Shown one piece after another: positions 3,001 through 55,730 of a stretch of 64,000 bases of DNA. The DNA lies in the IMG/VR virus record IMGVR_UViG_3300032288_003086, positions 60,087 to 124,086 of that record. The stretch is one strand, 5' to 3'. Positions within the stretch are counted from its first letter, which is position 1, and each line of letters begins with the position of its first letter. The notes below the pieces were generated by a model. That model saw nothing but the letters and a program-made list of their open reading frames with translations, was not told where the DNA came from and made no database searches. This DNA is from a virus. The translations under genes and the position numbers were made by a program.

Positions 3001-6000
3001 GTACGCAAACTCAACAAGAGAGGTATTGTCTTCAACAGCTTGAAGACTGTGACTGCAGGTCGTATTGAATACGTCAAACAGTCAGAGCATACTATTATGA
3101 GAAAAGATGTCAGTACTCTCAAAGAGGGTGTTGACTATAATACTGCCATGCAAGAGCTGGATGTACTCTATGATCGCATCATGGATTATAGTTATATGCT
3201 GCAGGCTGGCAGGGATGAGATGGTGTTTGATCCTTCAAACAACAGGGAAAGGCTTGTATCTGAATTATACAAAGAAGCTGTGACCCAGGCTCATTCTTAT
3301 TTCGAGCCCATACCTCAACATGCATTCATGCATCACATGCTCAATTCCATGGAACTCCATAGGATTGACCAGATGTTTGATCCTAATGCAAGTAAGAAGA
3401 TGACCATCAATCCTGTGGAGGTTGACTTACAACCTTCTACTACAGGAATGACTTATTACAACCTTGATCAGGCAGTAATGGATCTACCTAATGAATTCAC
3501 ATTCATCCAGGTCTCTACTGAAAAGGATGCCAACATGGTTACCCAAGGTATCCAACAGAAGCTGTTGCTTGCTGCACAGATTGCCGCGGAGAATCCTGAG
3601 TATGCCTCTATCAAGGATGACATAAACACATACAACACAGGTCTTGCCCAGATGGTGAAGACCCAGTTGAAAGTGCTTCAAAGGATGTTCAACACCAAAG
3701 ACACAGAGGTGATAGGTAAGATCTATCAGGTCATCTCTGCAGGTCTTAAGCAGCAAGGTGCGGACAGTACCATACTCCAGTACTTTGAACTGAATCCAAA
3801 TGGTAGTCCCAAGTACAATCCAAATTTGATGGTTGTGCAGTCCACCATTGCCAACTACTTCTTTTCAATATTCAACAATAACCTGTTTGATAAAAAGATA
3901 GCAGGTAGGAAGTATTACCATGTCAGTTCCATGGGTTACAATGTAATCGAGATGGATGGTAAGGTGATAACTACTTCTGAGTATAAGCGTAACAAGTCTA
4001 AGTATGACAAAGCCATTGCTGCGGGTGAAGCCAAGGTAAGACCTTTGAGTTATACCAAGACCAAACTTGCTGATGGTACTTACAAGTATGAAGTGGAAGT
4101 GATCATTCCCAAAGAGCTTCAGTCTCTTGACCAAGAGTTCCTTGAGAAGTATATGAGTGAGTTCTTTGCTACTCGTATCCCTACTGAGGGTCAGCGTTCC
4201 ATGATTGTAGCCAAGGTGGTTGACTATATGGATGAGGCCTATGGTTCTGGTATCATTGTTCCTCCCCAAGCGCACATGCTTGCAGGATCTGACTTTGACA
4301 TTGATGCGCTATATGCCCACGTCAAGTCATCCTATAGGACTCCTGATGGAAAAAAGGTATTGTATGGAGACTATTCTCATTACATAGAGAAGTATGATAT
4401 GTCTGAGAAGGATGCCAAGTTTATGGAATACCTGGTGTATCTATCCAAGGATCCTGTAATGCAGCCACTTTTGCAGTCAGAACTTAGAAGGATTAACTAC
4501 GAAGCAGGTTATAAGCAAGAGCAGGCCAGGAACTTTGGAAGTCTCTTTGGCGGTAAGCTTGAAGAGTTCTTCTCAAAGAATGCATCCACTATGGAAAAGG
4601 GGGAAGTAGAGAGTGACTCAGAACAGGAATCCATAGATACCTTCAAGAGAGTTATTGCTGTATTCAATGTGCTGGAAGATTTGAAGAAATCCAATCTTCC
4701 ATCAGATCCTGACAGTCTTGAGAAAGAGACTAAGAAGAATGGTTCTCCTGTGATCCCACTTATTCAGAACAAAATCTTGCAAGCCAAGATGAATATCCTA
4801 TCCAATGAGGCTGTATATAAGAAGTTCATGGAAGAATCATCAAACAGGGCTGATGTGGCTGCGGATCCTTACAAGGCTGCAGTTTCAGAAAGAGGACTGA
4901 GTGAAACAGAAATATATAACAAACAAAATATATATACTCCTACAGCCATGGTTGTGGCTAGAGGTTTGAACTCTGAATCCAAAGATTCTTTGGGTATAGC
5001 GGCAAGCTTCAACAAGGGTGTGAGTATGCTGGCTACTGTGCAGGCAGAACTCAAAGGAAAAGTGGGGACTGTATATGAACCCAATGCCAAGGGTAATCCA
5101 GAGCAGAGTATTGTCACAGACAAAGTTGTTGATGAATCTGTGAAGATTGTGGGTGGTTATATCGGTGTTGCGGCGGATGCTGCTAATAATCCATATCCAG
5201 GTCCATTGCATTTGAACAGTCATACTGTTCCTGTAATGCTTGCCATGTTCACCGTAGGCATGCCACAGCGTATGGCAATCATGTTCCAGTCACTACCTAT
5301 AATCCAAAAGATAGTGGCTGAATATACTATGGAGTATGGCAGTGCCTATAAAAAGAATCCTTATTCCAAGGATATGCGATTTGATACATTCCTCAGGGAT
5401 ATGATTAATGAGCTTGAAGAACGCATAGGGATTGAGGAGTTATTGGATCAAGACATCATGTATTTGAGTAAGACTGGAGCCAACTTTGATAAGGATTCCT
5501 ACAAGCTTGTGTGGAATAACCAGATCAAAAAGGACGATCCTGAGTTTGGATCTAGCAAAGATCAGCCCTTGAACACTTTTGGATTTGAGCTTTACAACAA
5601 AAAGAACATTGCATTTACCAGGGACATCGAGGACTTCATCATTCTCAATGAGTTCAAAAACTATAGCAACTTGGCCTCGGAGATCAGCTTTAAGATCACC
5701 AAGCTTACAGATGCATTGAAGTCTATCAAGCCTGACATGGATACCTTCGACAGGTTGGTAAATACCTTTGATATAGTCAGGACTCGTCCTGAAGAATTGA
5801 TGTTGAGTAAAAAGTCAATCCAGGACTTGTTTCAGATGTATCCTGTATTGCGAGAGTCTTATGAAGCATTGAAGTACATGGACAACATGTCCAGCAAAGT
5901 GCTACTTGAGCGTACTAGTTTGATTAAAGGTATGTCTGCACTCATAGGTAATATCTATGGGTATGAAAGTTCAGAGATACGTAAGGACATCAAGGCTTTC

Positions 6001-11100: not shown

Positions 11101-14100
11101 GTGTGCTTGCCAGCATATTCAAGCAGGTTCAAAACCCTAAGGAAAGGCTACAACTCTTAGAAGAAGAGAGAAACAAGATTGCCAGGATGATGGATATCAA
11201 TCAGCTTACTGATGCAACTTTGGATACCTATTTGGATGGCATCTTGAATGATGACAACTCAAGTTTCTCCATGGGTCAGACCATGGGAAATGTCTTGGGT
11301 ATAAGCATGAGTGATATCATAGGTTCCAACGCGGACTCTGAAATGATTGTCAGTGCCATGTTCCAATACATGAGGAACATGACTGAAGATGCCAGGATTG
11401 AAGCATTAAGATGGGCTGATAGCTTGGGTATAGATGAGCTTAAAAGAGCTGCCATAGAATCCTTGGGAGGATTGCAACAGGCCAACAAGATATTGACTCA
11501 GGAAGTAGAAGTAGTGACTGAGTTTGATGAGAATGGTGAACCTGAGTTGAAGGAAACATATAGACAATATGTGGATCCTGTGCTTGAAGACTTTTATAAG
11601 ACACACGACAAATACAGGTCAAACCTGCGTAAGTATTCCAAACTGATACGTGAGAAGAGTGTTGAGAAAAGAAACGAGGTAGATCCTGTAAAGGCTGCTA
11701 TCCTGGATCAACAGCTTAAAGAACTCATCAAGGAGGAAGAGGCTTTGAGTTTGGAGTGGACACAGTGGAGGATTGACAACACTGAGACCAGAATCAAACC
11801 AGAAGTACTCATGCTAATGCATGGTAGTGGCTTTACCAACAGTCAGATCACTGAGAACTATAGTCAAATCAATGCAATCATAAATGCTGCGGGTGGTGAA
11901 GAGAATCTCTCTGAAGACCAACAAGAGCAGATTGATTATCTGGAAGCTGAGATATCAAGGATCAGGACTGAGACTATCAAAGACAATCCTGAAGCACAAG
12001 AAAGGATTGATGCTTTATTGGAGTACTTTGAGTTTGATTATAACTATACCCTGTGGGCAAAGAAGCGTGTTGCTATTGAAGCCAGCGGCGACAAGAAGGC
12101 TTTGGAAAGGTGGGATTACAATAACACCAATGAAGTTCCTACTGAAGATTGGAATCAAGCCAGGGAAAAGTTGTATGAGGACATGATGGACATCCTTGGT
12201 AAGGATGAGGTGTTAGGTAATCTGTATCGTGAGAGATCCCTTATCAAAGCCAAGGCAAAGATCAGAGGCAAGTTTAATTTCAACTACCTTAACCAGGAAG
12301 ACATTGATAGGTATCATGCTTTGGACGAGCAGATATCCAATAGGTTGGCATACTTGAGGGAAACATCTCCTTTGACAGAGGGTGAGGCGGCGGACTTGAC
12401 AATAGTCACACAAAGGCTTGCCAATATAGAAATCAAAGTCCTTGATCCAAGATACATACGTCAAAGGGATCAATTGAAAGATACTGTACGCAAAGCATAC
12501 GCTGCATTGAATGAAGCCAAGAAGAAATTCACTGAGGCACCAGAGTCCATTGGCTTACGTGATCAGCTTGATGCTGCCCAGAGTCACTATGAAAAGACAG
12601 AAAGGGAGTTTGCAGATTTCTTCAATAAGAATAACCAGAGCAAGTATACCTTGGGAGAGAACATCATTGCTGAAAGAAAAGCATTGAAGGAACTTCCCAA
12701 CTCTTATCTGTTTGTCAAGCAGCCTAAGAATCCTGCTGACATGGAGAGATTCCCTAACAAGAAGTATCGCATCAAGCGTCTGAAGTCTGAGTCATACAAT
12801 CCCAAGTATCAGAACTCCTTTGTGGAGGACAGGATGGGTGGGGGCATGTATCCTATGCCAAAAGGCATCAGGTTCAATGAAACCATCAATGAGTTTGAGA
12901 TATCACCTAGTGCCAAGTTCGTGAATCCAAACTTCATGACTGTGCAGAATAATCCTATAGCAAAGGATTTCTACAAGAAGTGGATTATAGAGCAGTATCT
13001 GATTAAGCAGAAGAATGCCAGTGGTAAAAGACTAGGCTTTAATCTTCCTTATGTCCAACAGCTCGCACTAGAGAATGTCATGGCAAAAGGGATGGATGGT
13101 ATGGCTAGGGAGTATCAGGAGAAACTCCAGGAGATTTCATATCAGAACAGTGAGCTAGAGAAAGCAACCAATGAATCAGGTATAGCAGGACAACAGCGGG
13201 TGTTGTTCAAAGAGAACCACCTTGTTCCTGCAGCACTTACCACCACTGATGGCATAGGTGCCATTGTGAATTGGAATGCGGGGTACTACACCAATAGAAA
13301 GATGGCTATGATATCCAATGAGATGTCGGCAGTCTTGACATTCTTGAAAGACATTCAGCGTCAGATACAGGATCAAAGCGCAGGTCTACAGGATGCCAAT
13401 AAGGAATCCCATGCTCAAAGGCTTGAGGCTATAAACTCAATCATCACCCAGATTGAATACAACAAAGACAAGTTCATATTTGGAAAGCTGTTTGAAAAGG
13501 GAGATTCTGAGAACAGTGTGTTCAATAGAAAAACCATGCGTCTGTTCATGGGTGTGGCCAGCTTTGCTCGTATGGCATTTGATGTGCCTATGCAGTTTGG
13601 TAACATGTTATCTGGAAACGTTCAGGCATTCCTTTCAACTTCCAACCATAGACATGCCAGTACTCAGAACTATCTGAACGCTAAAAAGATGATATACACC
13701 AGATGGTTCCCTAAGATGATTGCAGACTGGGGTACTGTATCTGATGCAAGTTTTGAGACCAAGTTGTTTAGATATATGAATCCATTGTCCAAAGATCTGG
13801 ACAGGTTGTTTGATGCCAATACAGTGAGTAAGATGAGAAGGCTTGGTAACAGGATTTTCAACATCACTGACTTGTCCATGGCTTTACAGGATAAAGGTGA
13901 GATTGAAATAGGACTTACCACTATGTTGATGATCATGGATGGTCGCCGCTATGAGGTATTTGATACAGATAGCCAGGGTAATTTACTGATGGATGATCAA
14001 GGCAACAGGGTTGTCAAAAAGAATCCTGATGGAAGTATCGTATATGTGAATGCCATAGATGCGTTTGGTATAGATGAAAACAACAGCATAGCACCCAAGA

Positions 14101-36789: not shown

Positions 36790-36803
36790 TACCCATTTGG
36801 GTA
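36790..36803. promoter_or_regulatory. Operator-like palindrome
   Basis: TACCCATTTGGGTA is an inverted repeat with two central bases. Part of it (ATTAGTACCC) recurs about 60 bases nearer the gene start at 36733, giving two sites upstream of the small paralogous genes, as expected for a repressor-binding region. The regulator is unknown. Confidence 0.45.
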
Positions 36804-36809
36804 TAATTT

Positions 36810-36840
36810 ATGCGGAGAATAACCCTCGTATTCTCCGCAT
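36810..36840 (-). terminator. Hairpin downstream of the gene at 36844
   Basis: ATGCGGAGAAT (36810-36820) and ATTCTCCGCAT (36830-36840) form a perfect 11 bp stem with a 9-base loop just after the stop of the minus-strand gene at 36844. No long T-run follows, so termination strength is uncertain. Confidence 0.6.
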
Positions 36841-36843
36841 ATC

Positions 36844-37092
36844 TTAGCGAGTCAACTCTTCTATGTTGATATTATACTCATCAAACATTTCGTTTATATG
36901 ATTGAGTGTGAGTTCAATACCTGGATCGTACTTATCTTGATCATCAAGATTATCTGCGTCTGCATATACTCTACTGCGTAAGTTGAACCTAATGTGCCAA
37001 AGCATCATAGCCATATCAGATGCCTTAACAGCAGCTAAATGTTCCATTCTACCCTCAGGGTCATTCAAATCAAATTCCAATACTGCTTTCAT
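36844..37092 (-). CDS. 82-aa acidic hypothetical protein
   Basis: Starts MKAVLEFDLNDPEGRMEHLAA, with KASDMAMMLWHIRFNLRSRV and an acidic second half. Similar small proteins occur in many phages (a 'VLEFDL ... DDE..H..A' pattern). The AAAACC leader precedes the ATG, and a tRNA-like gene lies just upstream. No function known. Confidence 0.7.
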   Translation of the reverse strand: MKAVLEFDLNDPEGRMEHLAAVKASDMAMMLWHIRFNLRSRVYADADNLDDQDKYDPGIELTLNHINEMFDEYNINIEELTR

Positions 37093-37108
37093 GTATAATG
37101 GTTTTAGT

Positions 37109-37198
37109 AGTCAGGACAGGATTCGAACCTGCATTATTGTTGATCCTCTTTTCTAATGTTTTCTTGAGTCAACCGCTTCACCTTTCGGCCACCTGACT
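37109..37198 (-). tRNA. tRNA-like gene with disturbed anticodon arm (Leu-CAA-like loop)
   Basis: Acceptor AGTCAGG/CCTGACT (7 bp), D-arm GCCG/CGGT with a 10-base loop, and a T-arm GCAGG-TTCGAAT-CCTGT are all canonical. The anticodon side reads GTTGA-CTCAAGA, a textbook loop with CAA, but the matching 3' stem TCAAC comes only 18 bases later. Either the arm is degenerate or the gene has a short insertion near position 37/38. Total 90 nt would otherwise fit a long-variable-arm tRNA. Function doubtful without experiment. Confidence 0.6.
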
Positions 37199-37213
37199 GG
37201 TGCTTGGCACACC

Positions 37214-50860: not shown

Positions 50861-51007
50861 GTTAATTTTTTCTCACTGTTATACAAACACTTATGACTTT
50901 ACCCCTTGATTATGTCAGAATTATTGTGTAACTTATGTTTACATCAGTTACATGAACATAGGGGATATATTTTTCTTTGGTACTACCTTTCTTTGTCAGC
51001 TGAAAAA

Positions 51008-51036
51008 ATGGGGGAAACGTGATGTCTCCCCCATAC
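51008..51036 (-). terminator. Rho-independent terminator after the gene at 51056
   Basis: Minus strand: ATGGGGGA-(loop GACATCACGTT)-TCCCCCAT followed by TTTT. Perfect stem, strong T-run. The rest of the gap 50861-51055 shows only AT-rich sequence. Confidence 0.88.
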
Positions 51037-51055
51037 GATGGACAGCAATTACTTG

Positions 51056-51376
51056 TTAGTGATCTTTTGGACCACCATTCTGTGAATAGAACTCTCTCAA
51101 GTACTGTTCTTTGGCCCACTGCTTGCTGACTTGTTGTTCTAGCTGCTCTTGTTCGTGGGCTTCAATCATTTGATCAAAGATATCTTGGTCGAGCTTTTGC
51201 TCAACCACGTTATCCATGTCAGGTTCATCCTGATTATCTACCCATATCTGATATGTGTAGATGTCATTGATGTTATTGGTGATGAACTTACTGGAGAACT
51301 CTTCAATGGTACCAGTCCATGTACCATCTAAAGTACCTGATGAGTTGAAGATGATGTAATACCTGAATCTTTCCAT
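51056..51376 (-). CDS. 106-aa hypothetical protein
   Basis: Starts MERFRYYIIFNSSGTLDGTW; a strand-rich first half with TYQIWVDNQDEPDMDNVVE and a Gln/Glu-rich helical end (EQEQLEQQVSKQWAKEQY). Leader CTACTAAAACCCAAAAGC precedes the ATG. No family recognised. Confidence 0.65.
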   Translation of the reverse strand: MERFRYYIIFNSSGTLDGTWTGTIEEFSSKFITNNINDIYTYQIWVDNQDEPDMDNVVEQKLDQDIFDQMIEAHEQEQLEQQVSKQWAKEQYLREFYSQNGGPKDH

Positions 51377-51389
51377 GTGCTTTTGGGTT

Positions 51390-51593
51390 TTAGTAGTTAG
51401 ACGGATTATCCTTTTCCAATTGTTTGTTACTGAAATACCATATCACAAATCCTGTGATGAGCATCCATACACCTGCAATAAGAGCAGCGGTATTGTCTGC
51501 TGTGATTATGAATGGTACAATCAACCCCATTATGACGGTCATAGCGCCGATGAGGTTGACAATCACTAGTACTGCTTGATTAAATGTTTTCAT
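51390..51593 (-). CDS. 67-aa membrane protein, two helices
   Basis: Start chosen at ATG 51593 (MKTFNQAV) behind the leader ACTTTAAAACTCATATAC; upstream in-frame ATGs lack it. Two membrane helices (VLVIVNLIGAMTVIMGLIVPF and AALIAGVWMLITGFVIWYF). Unknown function. Confidence 0.65.
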   Translation of the reverse strand: MKTFNQAVLVIVNLIGAMTVIMGLIVPFIITADNTAALIAGVWMLITGFVIWYFSNKQLEKDNPSNY

Positions 51594-51867
51594 GTATATG
51601 AGTTTTAAAGTTAGTCTCTGCATTAATACCAATACACTTGGTCATAGTAACCTGTGGGATTACTACAACCTTGTGTATCAGCGTGATGTGTTCATACGGG
51701 TCACTTGCCTAAAAGGCGTTTGGACACTGATGTGCAGGAACATCAATCCTGGCTCATTATTCTAATGGCAAACTACCCCTGCGAGAGTGACCTCGCTTCT
51801 CATCATCTGGCACATAATGTATGTGGCTTTCGCGGCGGACTACCCAGGTTACAAGCCTAGGACGTGT
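51594..51867 (-). other. Non-coding stretch rich in short hairpins
   Basis: No convincing gene. Short stems on the minus strand include CACATA/TATGTG, GCGAG/CTCGC, CATTA/TAATG, TGATGT/ACATCA and TAGTAA/TTACTA, and TCCTAGGCT can pair with AGCCAGGA over a longer range. GC content is higher than in flanking genes. Short open frames occur in all three phases and are mutually exclusive, so I do not call any. Confidence 0.45.
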
Positions 51868-51971
51868 GACTGAGGGAGGACTCGAACCTCCTTATTAGGA
51901 ATAGCTAACAGTGGCAGTACTACCCAGGTTATCCATACTGGCATTGGTCGTTAGAGCAATACCACTCAGTC
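51868..51971 (-). tRNA. tRNA-like sequence with oversized central region
   Basis: Acceptor GACTGAG/CTCAGTC (7 bp) and T-arm GGAGG-TTCGAGT-CCTCC are canonical and correctly placed. The part between them is 73 nt, about 25-30 nt longer than normal, with stems GGTATTG/CAATGCC, CAGTA/TACTG and TTAG/CTAA instead of a clear anticodon arm. No anticodon is called. Probably a degenerate tRNA or a tRNA-like RNA domain. Confidence 0.45.
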
Positions 51972-51980
51972 ATAAAAGCC

Positions 51981-52012
51981 TGAACAACAGACTTTACGGA
52001 GTCCATTGTTCA
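51981..52012 (-). terminator. Terminator after the gene at 52035
   Basis: Minus strand TGAACAATGGACT pairs with AGTCTGTTGTTCA (13 pairs, two G-U) around CCGTAA, followed by GGCTTTTAT. The G-U pairs favour the minus strand. Confidence 0.75.
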
Positions 52013-52034
52013 AGCTAGTTTATACTAATGCCTA

Positions 52035-52430
52035 TTAGAAGGCAGCATCGTTGTGGTCTACTACTACACGACGATTAGGAGTAATGCGAGGGCTGGCAGA
52101 TACATCAGCAGCACGACGATCACTTTCAAGCATACTACGCTTTAGTTCAAAGTCTTCTGAACCGATAGCTTTAAATACATCTACTAAGCGACCAGTCTCA
52201 GCTTCGTAGCCTCTGGACTTTACAATCTCCACATTGTTACCTTCGAAGTTGGTAGTGAAGAATAGTGGTTCACCTGTACCTTCTTCTTGACGGTAGTTGG
52301 CACCTTGAGTCATTTGAAAGTCTGCCAGTTCATCAGTTGTGAAGCTGTGCACTTTGTAGGTGTAAACACGGATACTCTTGCCAGTTGATTCTGACGTTTT
52401 GTTGTACTTGTTGATCAGTTTACCTTTCAT
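52035..52430 (-). CDS. Hypothetical protein, possibly related to the gene at 54831 (131 aa)
   Basis: Starts MKGKLINKYNKTSESTGKS; strand-rich (IRVYTYKVHSF, PLFFTTNFEGNNVEIV) with a basic C-terminus (RITPNRRVVVD). The segment 'PLFFTTNFEGNN ... TGRLVDV' resembles 'QLRWCTQFESAD ... TGNLYLR' at 54831-55205. Own leader (CAATCAAAACC) and own terminator, suggesting a well-expressed single gene. Family unknown. Confidence 0.65.
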   Translation of the reverse strand: MKGKLINKYNKTSESTGKSIRVYTYKVHSFTTDELADFQMTQGANYRQEEGTGEPLFFTTNFEGNNVEIVKSRGYEAETGRLVDVFKAIGSEDFELKRSMLESDRRAADVSASPRITPNRRVVVDHNDAAF

Positions 52431-52476
52431 GGTTTTGATTGATTTAAGTGTTAATAATATAAGAATTGTAGATATT

Positions 52477-52517
52477 AAGAAGTGAGGCCATATGTGGGGC
52501 CGAGCGGCGCGAGGCCC
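52477..52517. repeat. Dispersed hairpin repeat, copy 1 (variant core)
   Basis: Core GAGCGGCGCGAG (one base different from the other copies) with stem GGGCC/GGCCC and an outer CATATG/CATATG extension. Preceded by AAGAAGTGAGG, as in copy 2. Confidence 0.75.
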
Positions 52518-52521
52518 ATAT

Positions 52522-52558
52522 GTATATACTACCTACTTAAAGTGTAGATAGTATATAC
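52522..52558 (-). terminator. Hairpin downstream of the gene at 52566
   Basis: GTATATACTA (52522-52531) pairs perfectly with TAGTATATAC (52549-52558), with an inner CTAC/GTAG stem. No T-run; it adjoins repeat copy 1, so RNA stabilisation or processing is as likely as termination. Confidence 0.5.
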
Positions 52559-52565
52559 AAAGGTT

Positions 52566-52760
52566 TTACTCCATCTCTTCGGTGGCTGCCAATCCCAGCC
52601 ATACAAAGAACAGGTAATAGACTACAGTACACCCTATCCATAATCCTGAAGAGAATATGTCTGAGGGACTGAAGGTGAACAGTGTGCATATACACAATGT
52701 CCACACTGCGATAAAAGGGAAAAGTACGATGATTAAACGAGCTATATTCTTCTTGGTCAT
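52566..52760 (-). CDS. 64-aa membrane protein, two helices
   Basis: Two membrane helices (LIIVLFPFIAVWTLCICTLF and GLWIGCTVVYYLFFVWLGL) separated by a short polar loop. Leader CTAACTCAAACACTTATATAAA precedes the ATG. Unknown function. Confidence 0.65.
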   Translation of the reverse strand: MTKKNIARLIIVLFPFIAVWTLCICTLFTFSPSDIFSSGLWIGCTVVYYLFFVWLGLAATEEME

Positions 52761-52793
52761 TTTATATAAGTGTTTGAGTTAGAGTCAATTAAA

Positions 52794-52884
52794 ACCAGGC
52801 TCCTATCTGTTGAGGTCAAGGGTGCTACCCTTATTTCTCGAACCTTAGTGGATTTGTACCACCTGTGCAGCCTAGGAGCCTGGT
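52794..52884 (-). ncRNA. Candidate structured RNA, 12 bp closing stem
   Basis: ACCAGGCTCCTA (52794-52805) and TAGGAGCCTGGT (52873-52884) are perfectly complementary and enclose AAGGGT/ACCCTT and GTGG/CCAC hairpins. It fills the gap between two minus-strand genes and, on the minus strand, is followed by TTTTAATT, so it could also end transcription. Not a canonical tRNA. Confidence 0.5.
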
Positions 52885-52893
52885 ATACTGTAA

Positions 52894-53316
52894 TTACTCA
52901 GACATTGCGTACTGAGTGGAGGCGTCACCATCCCAATAGTCAGCCTCGGAGACGACTTTGAGATAGGTGACTTTACGAGCAGTTTGAATCTGCTCATCAG
53001 TGAGACCACGCTTCAACATATCCTCGCAGATAGTGAAGGTAGTGTGACTAATGTGTTCCATACCATCATACTCATGAATGTGATACTCACATCCATCAGG
53101 TACTTCCTCGACAGCTAGTTCAGCAAACATACCACTGGCTTTGTCAAGACCAAAGCTAATAGCCTCGTTGACAATGCGCTTGTCATCGCGCATATTCCAA
53201 TAAGTACTGTCCAGTCCATGACTTGTGAACATATCAGGGTGGACAGATTCCAGGTGCTTTAAGAATTCTTTAGAGAATCCAAAGCCACCAAAACGTTGAT
53301 TGATTAATACCTTCAT
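52894..53316 (-). CDS. 140-aa hypothetical protein
   Basis: Starts MKVLINQRFGGFGFSKEFLK; has HSLDSTYWN-type and DDKRIVNEAI segments, and EYHIHEYDGMEHISHTTF. The 'INQRFGGFGFS' start occurs in a family of small phage proteins of unknown function. Leader CTTTAAACCCTCAAACGC precedes the ATG. Confidence 0.7.
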   Translation of the reverse strand: MKVLINQRFGGFGFSKEFLKHLESVHPDMFTSHGLDSTYWNMRDDKRIVNEAISFGLDKASGMFAELAVEEVPDGCEYHIHEYDGMEHISHTTFTICEDMLKRGLTDEQIQTARKVTYLKVVSEADYWDGDASTQYAMSE

Positions 53317-53342
53317 GCGTTTGAGGGTTTAAAGGGTTAGAA

Positions 53343-53645
53343 TTACAAGTTATCTGCCACTACAGCAGAGTCAATTTCAGACAATGACCCCGCTATCAAG
53401 ATGGGGCAACTGGATTCAATATCCCACACATTGTACTTAATAACGCCGTTCACTTCAATGGGATCAAGGAAGTAGGCGTGGAGGTCAAGCTGCTGTTCAA
53501 TGTACTCATTGCCTTCAAAGAGATGATTATCAAACTCTTTCTTGGCGGCGGTGTAACCTTTAGTCTCACCAGAAGCAAAGGAGAATACAGCAACAATAGT
53601 AAGTGTAAAGGCTATGATAACAGCCAGGAAGATGTTGTTCTTCAT
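53343..53645 (-). CDS. 100-aa protein with N-terminal membrane helix
   Basis: MKNNIFLAVIIAFTLTIVAV forms an anchor or signal peptide; the rest is an acidic exported-type domain (QLDLHAYFLDPIEVNGVIKY). Leader CTAACTCTAAAACCCATATAC precedes the ATG. Unknown function. Confidence 0.65.
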   Translation of the reverse strand: MKNNIFLAVIIAFTLTIVAVFSFASGETKGYTAAKKEFDNHLFEGNEYIEQQLDLHAYFLDPIEVNGVIKYNVWDIESSCPILIAGSLSEIDSAVVADNL

Positions 53646-53685
53646 TGTATATGGGTTTTAGAGTTAGTCTAATAAAAATCCCTCT

Positions 53686-53816
53686 GCACTCAGTTGTAAT
53701 ACAATTCAAGGATGATGCACTTTTTGCACCTCTTTAAACCTAACCAACCCAGTAAACCTGGTTCATACTAATACGTCTATCAGCACATATTGGATTTTTT
53801 GTATTACAACTGGTGC
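53686..53816 (-). ncRNA. Candidate structured RNA, about 18 bp closing stem
   Basis: CAGTTGTAATACAA (53691-53704) pairs perfectly with TTGTATTACAACTG (53799-53812), extended by GCAC/GTGC across one bulged base. Inside are CCAG/CTGG and GTGCA-type hairpins. It occupies the whole gap between genes ending at 53824 and starting at 53645, and is followed on the minus strand by ATTTTTATT. Confidence 0.55.
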
Positions 53817-53823
53817 ATTGGGA

Positions 53824-54093
53824 TTAGTGCATAATGTGATAAGCATCCTGCAATCTCTTTTCAAGACTGCCCAGGTAAATACCCTCATCACTATACACTG
53901 GAAGCCTGAGAACATCAGCATTCAACTTAGTACCACCAAAATGCTCCATGTTGATCATATCAATAAGATAATGACCTACATAGAAGGCAATAGTCCAAGA
54001 ATACCCATTGTCCCTTTCAATTACTCGTAACAAAGGATCCTCTGTTGTTGTAAGTGTAGGAGCCCACCATCCTGTGTGAATGAAATCTTTCAT
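53824..54093 (-). CDS. 89-aa hypothetical protein
   Basis: Starts MKDFIHTGWWAPTLTTTEDP; contains NGYSWTIAFYVGHYLIDMIN and ends RLQDAYHIMH. The leader CTAACTCTAAATCATATACGCC is a variant of the recurring one. Unknown function. Confidence 0.6.
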   Translation of the reverse strand: MKDFIHTGWWAPTLTTTEDPLLRVIERDNGYSWTIAFYVGHYLIDMINMEHFGGTKLNADVLRLPVYSDEGIYLGSLEKRLQDAYHIMH

Positions 54094-54159
54094 TGGCGTA
54101 TATGATTTAGAGTTAGTTATCTAATGCCGCACTTTTTTTACTGAAAAGGGTAAATAGTG

Positions 54160-54211
54160 AAGTGAGATTGGAGGGGAATAGGTGTTGTACTCCCCTCACA
54201 ATCAATCACTT
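54160..54211 (-). terminator. Long imperfect hairpin upstream of the gene at 54093
   Basis: AAGTGA-GATTG-GAGGGGA (54160-54177) pairs with TCCCCTC-CAATC-TCACTT (54191-54211) with two small bulges. It ends whatever transcript covers 54217-54830; no T-run. Confidence 0.5.
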
Positions 54212-54216
54212 ACAGA

Positions 54217-54420
54217 CTAAAATGCTCCACATTCTCATGCTTCATAGCTAGTCTTTTGCTGTTGTAGCCATAAGTGGCCCAGTGTTAGCATAGTTCACAC
54301 TGTTAAGTCGATTACATGGTGCACTCCTTTGTAGTAATCCACACTGAATTGTGTGAACAACGCACACTGGCGAGTTTGCATTCCAGGGTGGTAGAGATTT
54401 CAGCTATTCAAGTTTAACAA
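54217..54420 (-). other. Gap with nested inverted repeats and split protein-like frames
   Basis: CCAGTGT (54279-54285) pairs with ACACTGG (54364-54370), and inside it GTTCACAC (54293-54300) with GTGTGAAC (54351-54358). On the minus strand a 28-codon frame runs from the ATG at 54381 (MQTRQCALFTQF...) to a TGA at 54295, and a second protein-like stretch in another phase ends at the TAA near 54215 (...NSKRLAMKHENVEHFSL). Joining them would need two -1 shifts. It is either a decayed small gene, sequence error, or a structured RNA. Confidence 0.4.
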
Positions 54421-54435
54421 CAGTGAATAGGTATA

Positions 54436-54480
54436 TTGTAAGAAGTGAGGAACAATGCAAGGGCGAGCGGAGCGAGCCCT
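54436..54480. repeat. Dispersed hairpin repeat, copy 2
   Basis: Core GAGCGGAGCGAG (54465-54476) in stem GGGC/GCCC, outer ACAAT/ATTGT, preceded by AAGAAGTGAGG as in copy 1. Confidence 0.8.
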
Positions 54481-54499
54481 ATTGTGTACAGGTGTAGTT

Positions 54500-54535
54500 A
54501 CTGTGTATGTAAGCACGAGCGGAGCGAGTGCTATT
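54500..54535. repeat. Dispersed hairpin repeat, copy 3
   Basis: Core GAGCGGAGCGAG (54517-54528) in stem AGCAC/GTGCT. The arm sequence differs from copies 2, 4 and 5 but stays complementary. Confidence 0.8.
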
Positions 54536-54561
54536 TGTGCGATAACTTGAGTGTATAGAAA

Positions 54562-54716
54562 ATAGTTTACGATGACTACCCATTTGTTTATATCCAAGCT
54601 TATACAGTACTCGCACCAAGGTTTCAGAGGGTTTCTCTAGATTGGTGTAGCCTGTAAGCATTGAATGGCAAAGAGGAATACTACAGGTTAATTACTCCTG
54701 TGTCATCGTAAACTAT
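54562..54716 (-). ncRNA. Candidate structured RNA, 15 bp closing stem, branched
   Basis: ATAGTTTACGATGAC (54562-54576) is perfectly complementary to 54702-54716. Nested inside one arm are CCATT/AATGG, GCTTA-CAG/CTG-TAAGC, CACCAA/TTGGTG and AGAG/CTCT, and a second arm is ACAGG/CCTGT. Five nested helices in 155 bases is far more than expected by chance. A 60-codon minus frame (54479-54661, MLTGYTNLEKPSETL...) overlaps it and cannot be excluded as a real mini-gene. Confidence 0.55.
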
Positions 54717-54721
54717 ATAAA

Positions 54722-54756
54722 ACCACCCGCTTTCTCTAAGCTTCTGTGCGGGTGGT
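54722..54756 (-). terminator. Terminator-like hairpin
   Basis: ACCACCCGC (54722-54730) pairs with GCGGGTGGT (54748-54756); on the minus strand TTTTATATAG follows. It precedes the structured element at 54562-54716. Confidence 0.65.
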
Positions 54757-54788
54757 ATGAGAGAGTCCTTGTAGCTCAGGACATAAAA

Positions 54789-54815
54789 GCGAGGAGCCCG
54801 CTATGGACTCCCCGC
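54789..54815 (-). terminator. Terminator after the gene at 54831
   Basis: Minus strand GCGGGGAG-loop-CTCCTCGC (one G-U pair) followed by TTTTATG, 15 bases after the stop. The G-U pair favours the minus strand. Confidence 0.75.
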
Positions 54816-54830
54816 TGTAAAGACTGCTGA

Positions 54831-55205
54831 TTAAAGCTCAGCATCTTCTGCACTCACCACGGGCTTGCGCACAGTGGTGGTGTTGGAGGTAGCTTTGCGT
54901 GCAGCGACTGCAGCTTGGCGTTGCTCCAAGGTCAGAACTGCTTGAGTCCTGAGGTAGAGGTTCCCAGTCTTGGGATTGATTGCACCCTCTATGTGCAATG
55001 TGTCCGCAGATTCGAACTGCGTACACCAGCGCAATTGGTCAGCCTCCTCGTCAAACTGGACGGTGGTATAACCTTTTGCGCCGTCCCTGCTAAGCTTCTC
55101 AGTGAAATACTGAAGAGTTAGAGGGTTGGCACTGATTTCGCTCAGTGAAGCGCCGTACCAGTTAGCGCCTGCGCTAGTGGTACGGATGTACATTGCTGTA
55201 ATCAT
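54831..55205 (-). CDS. GC-rich hypothetical protein (124 aa)
   Basis: Starts MITAMYIRTTSAGANWYG; strand-rich middle (RWCTQFESADTLHIEGAI, TGNLYLRTQAVLT) and an Ala/Thr-rich C-terminal tail ending EDAEL. The coding sequence is clearly GC-richer than the rest of the phage. Distant resemblance to the protein at 52035 suggests paralogy or a shared fold. Own terminator; repeat copy 4 lies just upstream. Confidence 0.65.
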   Translation of the reverse strand: MITAMYIRTTSAGANWYGASLSEISANPLTLQYFTEKLSRDGAKGYTTVQFDEEADQLRWCTQFESADTLHIEGAINPKTGNLYLRTQAVLTLEQRQAAVAARKATSNTTTVRKPVVSAEDAEL

Positions 55206-55209
55206 CGTA

Positions 55210-55258
55210 AATGGCTATTAGTGAGTGATATGCTGAGACCGAGCGGAGCGAGGTCTAT
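55210..55258. repeat. Dispersed hairpin repeat, copy 4
   Basis: Core GAGCGGAGCGAG (55241-55252) in stem AGACC/GGTCT, preceded by AGTGAG and ATGC as in other copies. Confidence 0.8.
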
Positions 55259-55268
55259 ACAGTAAAAT

Positions 55269-55303
55269 CCGCGTAGTTGGTACTATACTTCGCAACTACG
55301 CGG
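55269..55303 (-). other. Perfect 11 bp hairpin
   Basis: CCGCGTAGTTG (55269-55279) pairs with CAACTACGCGG (55293-55303) around 13 bases. It lies in the second half of a possibly frame-split mini-gene (55255-55433). Confidence 0.6.
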
Positions 55304-55304
55304 C

Positions 55305-55410
55305 GGTCACCGATGGTGCATGCTAGGCTTTCTCGCCATAGACTGCCTCCCTATAAGCCTTATAAGCTTCATAGAGAGATGTAGCATACACTACTACACC
55401 ATCGATGACC
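55305..55410 (-). ncRNA. Candidate structured RNA, 14-pair closing stem
   Basis: GGTCACCGATGGTG (55305-55318) faces CACCATCGATGACC (55397-55410): 13 Watson-Crick pairs plus one that is G-U only on the minus strand. Inside are ATGCTA/TAGCAT and CTAT/ATAG helices. A 36-codon frame overlaps it, so it may be a structured mRNA rather than a separate RNA. Confidence 0.45.
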
Positions 55411-55433
55411 CAAGTTCTGAGCTTGGATTCCAT
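55323..55433 (-). CDS. 36-aa mini-ORF, possibly frame-split
   Basis: ATG at 55433, MESKLRTWVIDGV then VVYATSLYEAYKAYREAVYG, ending EKA at a TAG. The composition is protein-like. A second protein-like stretch in the -1 phase (IGDRRVVAKYSTNYADFTV) continues to a TAG at 55255, directly before repeat copy 4. One missing A in the AAA of GAGAAAGCC would join them into about 60 residues. Real small gene, decayed gene or programmed frameshift cannot be told apart here. Confidence 0.4.
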   Translation of the reverse strand: MESKLRTWVIDGVVVYATSLYEAYKAYREAVYGEKA

Positions 55434-55447
55434 CGTAGCTGGCTCAC

Positions 55448-55490
55448 AGTGAGGATGCTATGCACAGGCGAGCGGAGCGAGCCATGTGAT
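55448..55490. repeat. Dispersed hairpin repeat, copy 5
   Basis: Core GAGCGGAGCGAG (55470-55481) in stem GGC/GCC with outer CACA/TGTG, preceded by AGTGAGG and ATGC. Confidence 0.8.
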
Positions 55491-55521
55491 GTCTCTCTCT
55501 CCTTGAAAGAATTCTTTTTAA

Positions 55522-55700
55522 GTTGTTGCTAGATTTCGCGAGGCCTCTGTAAACTATGGGGGGTACCCCTCTGACTCCGCGAGGCCTGGGGGGTTGTTGC
55601 TAGGACCCCCACATCTCCTCTAATGTAGAGCATTTTACTATGGCGTTTTAGATAATTGATAATGAAAAGATTATCTAAATTCTAGCAACATATATGTGGG
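55522..55700 (-). other. Repeat-rich gap with candidate pseudoknot
   Basis: GTTGTTGCTAG occurs at 55522 and 55593, CGCGAGGCCT at 55537 and 55578, and GGGGTACCCC is a palindrome at 55560. GTTGCTAG (55596-55603) pairs with CTAGCAAC (55682-55689) while CCCACAT (55608-55614) pairs with ATGTGGG (55694-55700), interleaved as in an H-type pseudoknot around a 10 bp hairpin TTTAGATAAT/ATTATCTAAA. No gene is visible. Confidence 0.5.
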
Positions 55701-55730
55701 AGTGGTGAGGTGGATGATATAAGTGGTTGA

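Follow-up and report, generated by a model that had tools for sequence, protein, structure and literature searches.

What occupies the gaps between genes in viral DNA where the two ends of a gap are complementary over 12 to 15 bases? The DNA analysed here is a stretch of 64,000 nucleotides (hereafter the window), comprising bases 60087–124086 of the 124,086-base IMG/VR viral record IMGVR_UViG_3300032288_003086. An earlier note, made from the letters alone, had described four of its gaps, here called E1 to E4, as holding structured small RNAs or structured mini-mRNAs. By sequence comparison, E2 is a member of a widespread structured RNA family of environmental crAss-like phages, which is defined in this analysis and named F1. 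On balance we favour the reading that F1 would be a structured-RNA chassis, namely a stable small RNA that acts in trans and carries exchangeable cargo, and that E1 shares its cargo system and E4 is a mini-mRNA.

The terminase of the window matched phrog_6681, with crAss-like phages such as cr50_1 (27% identity) as its best relatives, and DnaB, primase and polymerase genes are also encoded by the phage. The nearest relative found was a 125-kb contig (G001, also L027/L030/L055), with two others (G002 and G003) further off. The noncoding gaps of the window cluster at 50861–55730, and a BLAST search of this region against 50,697 phage records gave no match.

Long stems in four intergenic gaps

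All four of the long complementary stems that had been claimed were present. The E1 stem (52794–52805/52873–52884) has 12 pairs, all perfect; the E2 stem (53691–53704/53799–53812) has 14 perfect pairs and the extensions TGCAC/GTGCA and CCC/GGG; and the E3 stem (54562–54576/54702–54716) has 15 perfect pairs. The E4 stem (55305–55318/55397–55410) comprises 14 pairs, one of them U-G if read on the minus strand but A·C on the plus strand; this is the pair to which the earlier note had ascribed G-U pairing on the minus strand alone. Perfect arms of ≥12 bp enclosing a loop of 40–300 nt occurred three times in the 4.35-kb region (E1, E2 and E3), whereas 1000 dinucleotide shuffles averaged 0.071 and never exceeded 2, which agrees with the claim that perfect stems of 14 and 15 pairs lie beyond chance. 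The E2 and E3 stems were the longest of their type in the 124-kb record.

Minus-strand folding against 200 dinucleotide shuffles, the check that had been suggested for each gap, gave z values of -4.95 (E1), -6.09 (E2), -5.74 (E3) and -7.16 (E4), with 0/200 shuffles reaching the observed energy in each case. Plus-strand values were weaker than those of the minus (gene-sense) strand every time (-3.3, -5.4, -4.8 and -4.8, respectively). An Rfam 15 search of E1–E4 returned no family at gathering score. The description of the gaps was accurate but incomplete, as a tRNA-like RNA and more noncoding candidates adjoin them and E4 overlaps a small reading frame.

Fold and extent of the F1 family

E2 (53676–53822, minus strand) starts 1 base past the stop codon of gene 53824–54093 and ends approximately 35 nt ahead of the start of gene 53343–53645. 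In the 5′ to 3′ direction it consists of the P1 5′ strand CCC-AA-TGCAC (53813–53822, pairing with 53680–53689), the P3 5′ arm CAGTTGTAATACAA (53799–53812), which is the same in most F1 members, a variable insert or cargo (53705–53798), the P3 3′ arm TTGTATTACAACTG (53691–53704), which forms 14 perfect pairs with the 5′ arm, and a 3′ tail AGTGCAGAGGG (53680–53690) made up of the P1 3′ strand and GGG, the most conserved stretch of the family. In the homologue from the sister phage (L027 14437–14643) the clamp was kept and the interior was unrelated, the two cargos not being alignable.

The F1 fold is a three-way junction. P1 is the clamp, P2 a hairpin and P3 a stem, and a pseudoknot joins the P2 loop to the 3′ tail. 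Directly within P1, members carry the P3 stem CAGTTGTAAT/ATTACAACTG or another that covaries in its place; the two P3 arms of E2 occupy this position. Members also have P1 TGCAC/GTGCA with a paired tail, which in E2 takes the form CCC-AA-TGCAC/GTGCA-GA-GGG with GGG paired to the upstream CCC. The P2 hairpin with CCCAAG loop–tail pairing is usual, not universal, and is lacking in E2, where the CCC of the P1 strand replaces the P2-loop CCC of other members. This solution is not confined to E2: in F1 members with no CCC in the P2 loop, a CCC upstream of P1 often pairs with GGG, and the P2-less subtype was also found in G003/L082, L159 and L155.

Across 25 F1 sequences, 98.6% of the P1/P2/P3 pair cells were paired and nine pairs had changed on both sides. 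The covariation score was 0.285, compared with 0.125 after shuffling, and neither the observed pairing nor this score was reached in any shuffle (0/500). P2 covaried at all five of its pairs (CTCAC/GTGAG, TCTAC/GTAGA, CCTGA/TCAGG, CTAGC/GCTAG and CTATC/GATAG). With the pseudoknot between the P2 loop and the 3′ tail added, 98.5% were paired, with covarying CCC/GGG, CCA/UGG and CAC/GUG, and the wider F1 set also showed this pairing. In a collection gathered by P2 alone, 96 of 106 distinct elements among the matches listed had a P3 of ≥7 bp followed by the matching P1 strand, whereas shuffles gave a mean of 9.0 (maximum 14) and swapped DNA 10.2. This is the independent test of P3; a test on 14 sequences was inflated because its members had been found by pairing. 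P3 can be replaced whole and still be paired, as in CAGTCTAAGTA/TACTTAGACTG. A count of G-U versus A-C as a test of strand was dropped because the search itself permitted G-U.

The covariance model R1 detects F1 poorly when the cargo is long, and arm pairing was therefore used as the search. A scan of viral contigs (IMG/VR) with the 3′ arm ATYACAACTRAGTGCA yielded at least 119 stretches. In most of the matches listed, CAGTTGTAAT was present as the partner arm 40–220 nt upstream, with TGCAC and a hairpin of the type CTCACTTCCCAAGGGTGAG in front of it; of the matches without a recognised partner, some had the family tail and a diverged arm and the remainder resembled unrelated DNA. A second scan used the P2 hairpin alone, its figures covering the matches listed, and the two scans combined placed an F1 element on at least 147 loci, at approximately one or two copies per record. 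Among the matches listed, 88 of 94 elements were intergenic, the neighbouring gene lay on the F1 strand in 65 of 73 cases upstream and 71 of 77 downstream, and terminases within the examined loci were always of the crAss-like kind, phrog_6681 (L098, L144, L082, L184, L147 and the window).

No match to the F1 element was found in the 50,697 phage records, and its 3′ signature (≤3 mismatches) was absent from Leptolyngbya phage Lbo-JY46, Cellulophaga phage phi17:2 and cr50_1. The only match in GTDB genomes was an 8-kb contig of a Neisseriaceae MAG (metagenome-assembled genome; L217), three proteins of which had no match when checked against PHROG; it is probably a mis-binned phage contig.

Exchangeable cargo and its explanations

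The inserts within P3 were hypervariable: 96 cargos, among the matches listed, fell into 84 clusters and ranged from 28 to 176 nt. Near-identical elements were nevertheless found in contigs whose fetched flanks were otherwise unalike, namely L129/L142 (152 nt at 98%), L108/L167 (95 nt at 96%) and L110/L165 (110 nt at 95%), and two further pairs, L073/L084 (124 nt at 98%) and L096/L109 (121 nt at 93%), had only short matches besides. The block common to exchanged elements often begins within P2 (CCCAAGGGTGAG), indicating that cargo and P3 can sit behind different 5′ parts. L139 likely has an empty site for the element of L114. These comparisons suggest that F1 elements move from phage to phage as small units.

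E1 (52794–52884, minus strand), between genes 52894–53316 and 52566–52760, consists of a 12-bp clamp, a 5′ hairpin GTGG/CCAC and a cargo module GGTTCGAGAAATAAGGGTAGCACCCTTGACCTC (52812–52844). Its inner module GGTTCGAGAAANAAGGNTNGCANCCTTNACCTC was found in three other contigs (L127, L221 and L222), always inside an F1 frame, and in L221 with a wholly different P3. The F1 frame sequence itself was not found in E1, and the likeness to these three elements is limited to the cargo module, which sits here in a different 12-bp clamp. Such a recurrence provides direct evidence for the separability of clamp and cargo, and it suggests that E1 shares the cargo system of F1. The proposal of structured small RNAs stood up well for E2, with compensatory changes in its homologues in every helix including the pseudoknot; it was supported for E1 through its recurring module, and for E3 by folding energies only.

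Further frames were found near F1 or alongside it. A second frame, F2 (ACTCTCATCCAAGCAGG … CAAGGGTTGCAACCTTGTGAGAGTAC), is located on the F1 strand, in most cases 45–380 nt upstream of F1; among the F1 elements examined it was never near F1 on the opposite strand. A third has a tRNA-Leu-like body (AGTCAGGTGGCGGAATTGGTAGACGC … ACAGGTTCGAATCCTGTCCTGACT) in which a variable stretch replaces the anticodon arm; L180 carries five copies in approximately 1.7 kb, with differing inserts, and one close variant. A related tRNA-Leu-like RNA with an anticodon-loop insertion is located in the window at 37106–37199 (minus strand) and is 94% identical at G001 3783–3880. A fourth frame (TAAGATGTGAAAC…CTGATTAA…TTAATCAG) continues directly into F1.

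No Rfam 15 family was found at gathering score for F1 loci, and the open-access papers searched, which leave out most subscription papers, gave no account of such a family, although an earlier report is possible. A conserved clamp with an almost always different insert likewise had no counterpart in Rfam 15 or in those papers. One conserved clamp with exchangeable, unrelated inserts would be a categorically new architecture, and newness is claimed for the architecture, not for the function.

Several known systems invite comparison. The stable RNAs C and D of T4 are structured non-tRNA small RNAs beside phage tRNAs with a function that is unknown; they are likened to F1 by description, not by sequence, and are not known as a family with exchangeable interiors. 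Skipping-rope RNA has a conserved base and a long variable region. This conserved motif (RF02924) was described among phage noncoding RNAs (PMC8501573). Its covariance model (E ≤ 1) matched none of seven records (G000, G001 and five others with F1-type loci), nor did cmscan of F1 loci give a skipping-rope match. GOLLD and ROOL are structured phage and bacterial RNAs of unknown function (PMC12286853). They often lie near tRNAs and are hundreds of bases long with conserved interiors, whereas F1 is a small clamp with unrelated interiors and no Rfam match. Theta ribozymes are small structured RNAs of Caudoviricetes tRNA regions with a proposed role in phage RNA processing (PMC10879173); F1, known here from sequence alone, differs in carrying variable cargo in a clamp and in occurring also without tRNAs. 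RNA anti-CRISPRs (Racr, solitary repeat units) are short phage RNAs that act by mimicry in trans (PMC10651486) and offer a model for possible cargo action; they are single CRISPR repeats, which F1 is not.

Under the reading we favour, F1 RNA would be transcribed within operons or RNA arrays, processing by the host or the phage would excise it, and the clamp would let the released RNA persist as a stable small RNA. The clamp could be a chassis on which all members rely to mature, to remain stable or to bind a protein of phage or host. The cargo may act in trans on host targets that differ from case to case, and this would account for its fast turnover. This draws on comparisons of fold, covariation, gene-sense orientation, hypervariable cargo, near-identical elements in dissimilar contigs and one module in different clamps. 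More tentatively, environmental crAss-like phages may have in common a kit of RNA chassis (F1, F2 and the tRNA-Leu-like body without a normal anticodon arm) bearing fast-changing RNA cargo that can be exchanged, the loaded chassis being traded horizontally as an arsenal of RNAs against differing hosts; we hold this to be possible rather than probable.

Several observations weigh against trans-acting cargo in a common chassis. Most cargos were barely more stable than shuffles (median z -1.0), so the cargo may be filler. The loci are fragments, and contigs with a common element may share more beyond the fetched flanks. E2 itself lacks P2 and the P2-loop pseudoknot, E3 is without a homologue found and could be placed in the F1 system by its shape only, and E1 and E2 are tightly placed between co-oriented genes, as expected of cis elements.

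The main rival, which we consider unlikely, is that these are cis-acting intercistronic elements, with long clamps at which RNase III would cut the operon mRNA or which would protect it as stability sites, the interior being irrelevant. Stop codons precede E2 by 1 nt and E1 by 9 nt, with the next start approximately 33–35 nt on, the elements lie on the gene strand, and hypervariable, mostly weakly folded interiors would fit as well. However, a plain cutting site needs no conserved P2, tail pseudoknot or near-fixed P1 and P3 sequence, and it would not lead one to expect F1 so often 45–380 nt downstream of same-strand F2 and never near opposite-strand F2, or one cargo module recurring in different clamps.

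We think it rather doubtful that F1 is a new self-cleaving ribozyme with the junction and pseudoknot as its catalytic core and P3 with its insert as a dispensable arm. Small ribozymes usually consist of a small pseudoknotted core and a distal arm that varies, a Hatchet ribozyme is located approximately 1.0 kb (L073) or 1.1–1.4 kb (L184) from F1, and a sub-threshold twister-P1 match lies approximately 130 nt from the F1 element of L141. Yet E2 and several others are without P2 and the loop pseudoknot, the P3 sequence is conserved over 8–10 pairs, more than a dispensable arm requires, and no known Rfam ribozyme family matches F1. Improbable, too, is that F1 is a miniature mobile element of DNA, with terminal inverted repeats that only resemble an RNA stem: conserved inverted ends flank unrelated interiors, contigs that are otherwise dissimilar carry near-identical copies, and apparent empty sites would also suit this view, but inverted ends do not predict an internal, asymmetric and covarying P2 and pseudoknot, the strand bias with genes is strong, no consistent target duplication was seen, and copies number approximately one or two per record. 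The short F1 ends GTTGT...ACAAC, and these alone, presumably resemble Bacteroidota CRISPR repeats. That they imitate the repeats of host CRISPR arrays as an RNA anti-CRISPR is very improbable: phages do encode such mimics (PMC10651486), but the supposed repeat would be split by a 40–220 nt insert, nothing in a repeat corresponds to the P1/P2/tail core, and unrelated helices can take the place of P3.

If the cargo acts in trans, F1 would form part of a modular RNA toolkit with a logic comparable to that of effector genes that can be exchanged, and arbitrary RNAs might be stabilised with the clamp as a natural scaffold. F1 also gives sharp, testable signatures for crAss-like phage transcriptomes.

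E3, E4 and neighbouring noncoding candidates

E3 (54562–54716, minus strand) has its 15-bp clamp, a hairpin ACAGG/CCTGT directly after it and a long inner stem. The clamp with a hairpin right behind it resembles the other frames; a homologue search gave none above chance.

The strong fold of E4 (55305–55410, minus strand; z -7.2) lies around most of a 36-codon mini-ORF (MESKLRTWVIDGVVVYATSLYEAYKAYREAVYGEKA, 55323–55433, minus strand). A homologue of the mini-ORF was found at the same place in G003 (BLASTP E 1e-5 in a two-sequence comparison) and a small ORF at this position in G001, the folds of G001 and G003 differing from that of E4. The protein is kept and the long stem, not seen in either relative, is not, the very outcome that the earlier note had named as refuting its proposal; E4 as a conserved noncoding RNA was thereby ruled out. 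With the mini-ORF conserved and the stem not, E4 is best read, from these comparisons, as a structured mini-mRNA, the other form that the note had offered. Just after the mini-ORF, a hairpin with the conserved loop GAAGTAYAGTA (55262–55304, minus strand) was found in three phages (the window, L027 near 11486, and L068), once per record, with stems unrelated among all three.

A tRNA-like RNA at 51866–51972 (minus strand) has acceptor, D and T arms and an enlarged, irregular anticodon region. It was not called by ARAGORN or Rfam, and its pattern AGCTATTCCTAATAAG gave chance matches except in the sister phage, where the copy (L027 14322–14436) shows compensatory changes in the acceptor and D stems. 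Adjoining it is a noncoding stretch of approximately 230 nt (51633–51866, minus strand) in which the motif GTAACCTGGGTAGTCCGCC is repeated. Its folding signal is weak (z -2.2), and over 152 nt it shares 89% identity with L027 14640–14905. L027 also carries a 61-nt tRNA-like RNA (12898–12958) with a 9-bp acceptor and D and T arms and no anticodon arm.

Hairpins at 52492–52524, 54455–54539, 55231–55263 and 55460–55492 have a constant core CGAGCGGAGCGAG (once CGAGCGGCGCGAG) and differing stems. A similar motif, CGCTCGCTGCGCTCGC, lies upstream of start codons in G001 and G003; are these hairpins a leader or promoter element? Behind two leader hairpins, a 330-nt ORF-free stretch (54110–54440, minus strand; z -4.5 over 54120–54560), whose end GTAAGTGATTGANTGTGAGG is common to G001 and G003, is an RNA gene candidate. 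The genes starting at 51632, 53645 and 54093 have a common leader close to GACTAACTCTAAAACCCATATACA just ahead of their start codons.

Hatchet ribozymes above the Rfam cut-off were found in crAss-like phages at L184 3088–3239 (minus strand), L073 5635–5767 (plus strand) and 36791–36918 (plus strand) of cr50_1, a named gut crAss-like genome. A twister-P1 match below threshold (48.5 bits, E 5e-8) was located at L141 855–923, shortly upstream of an F1 element.

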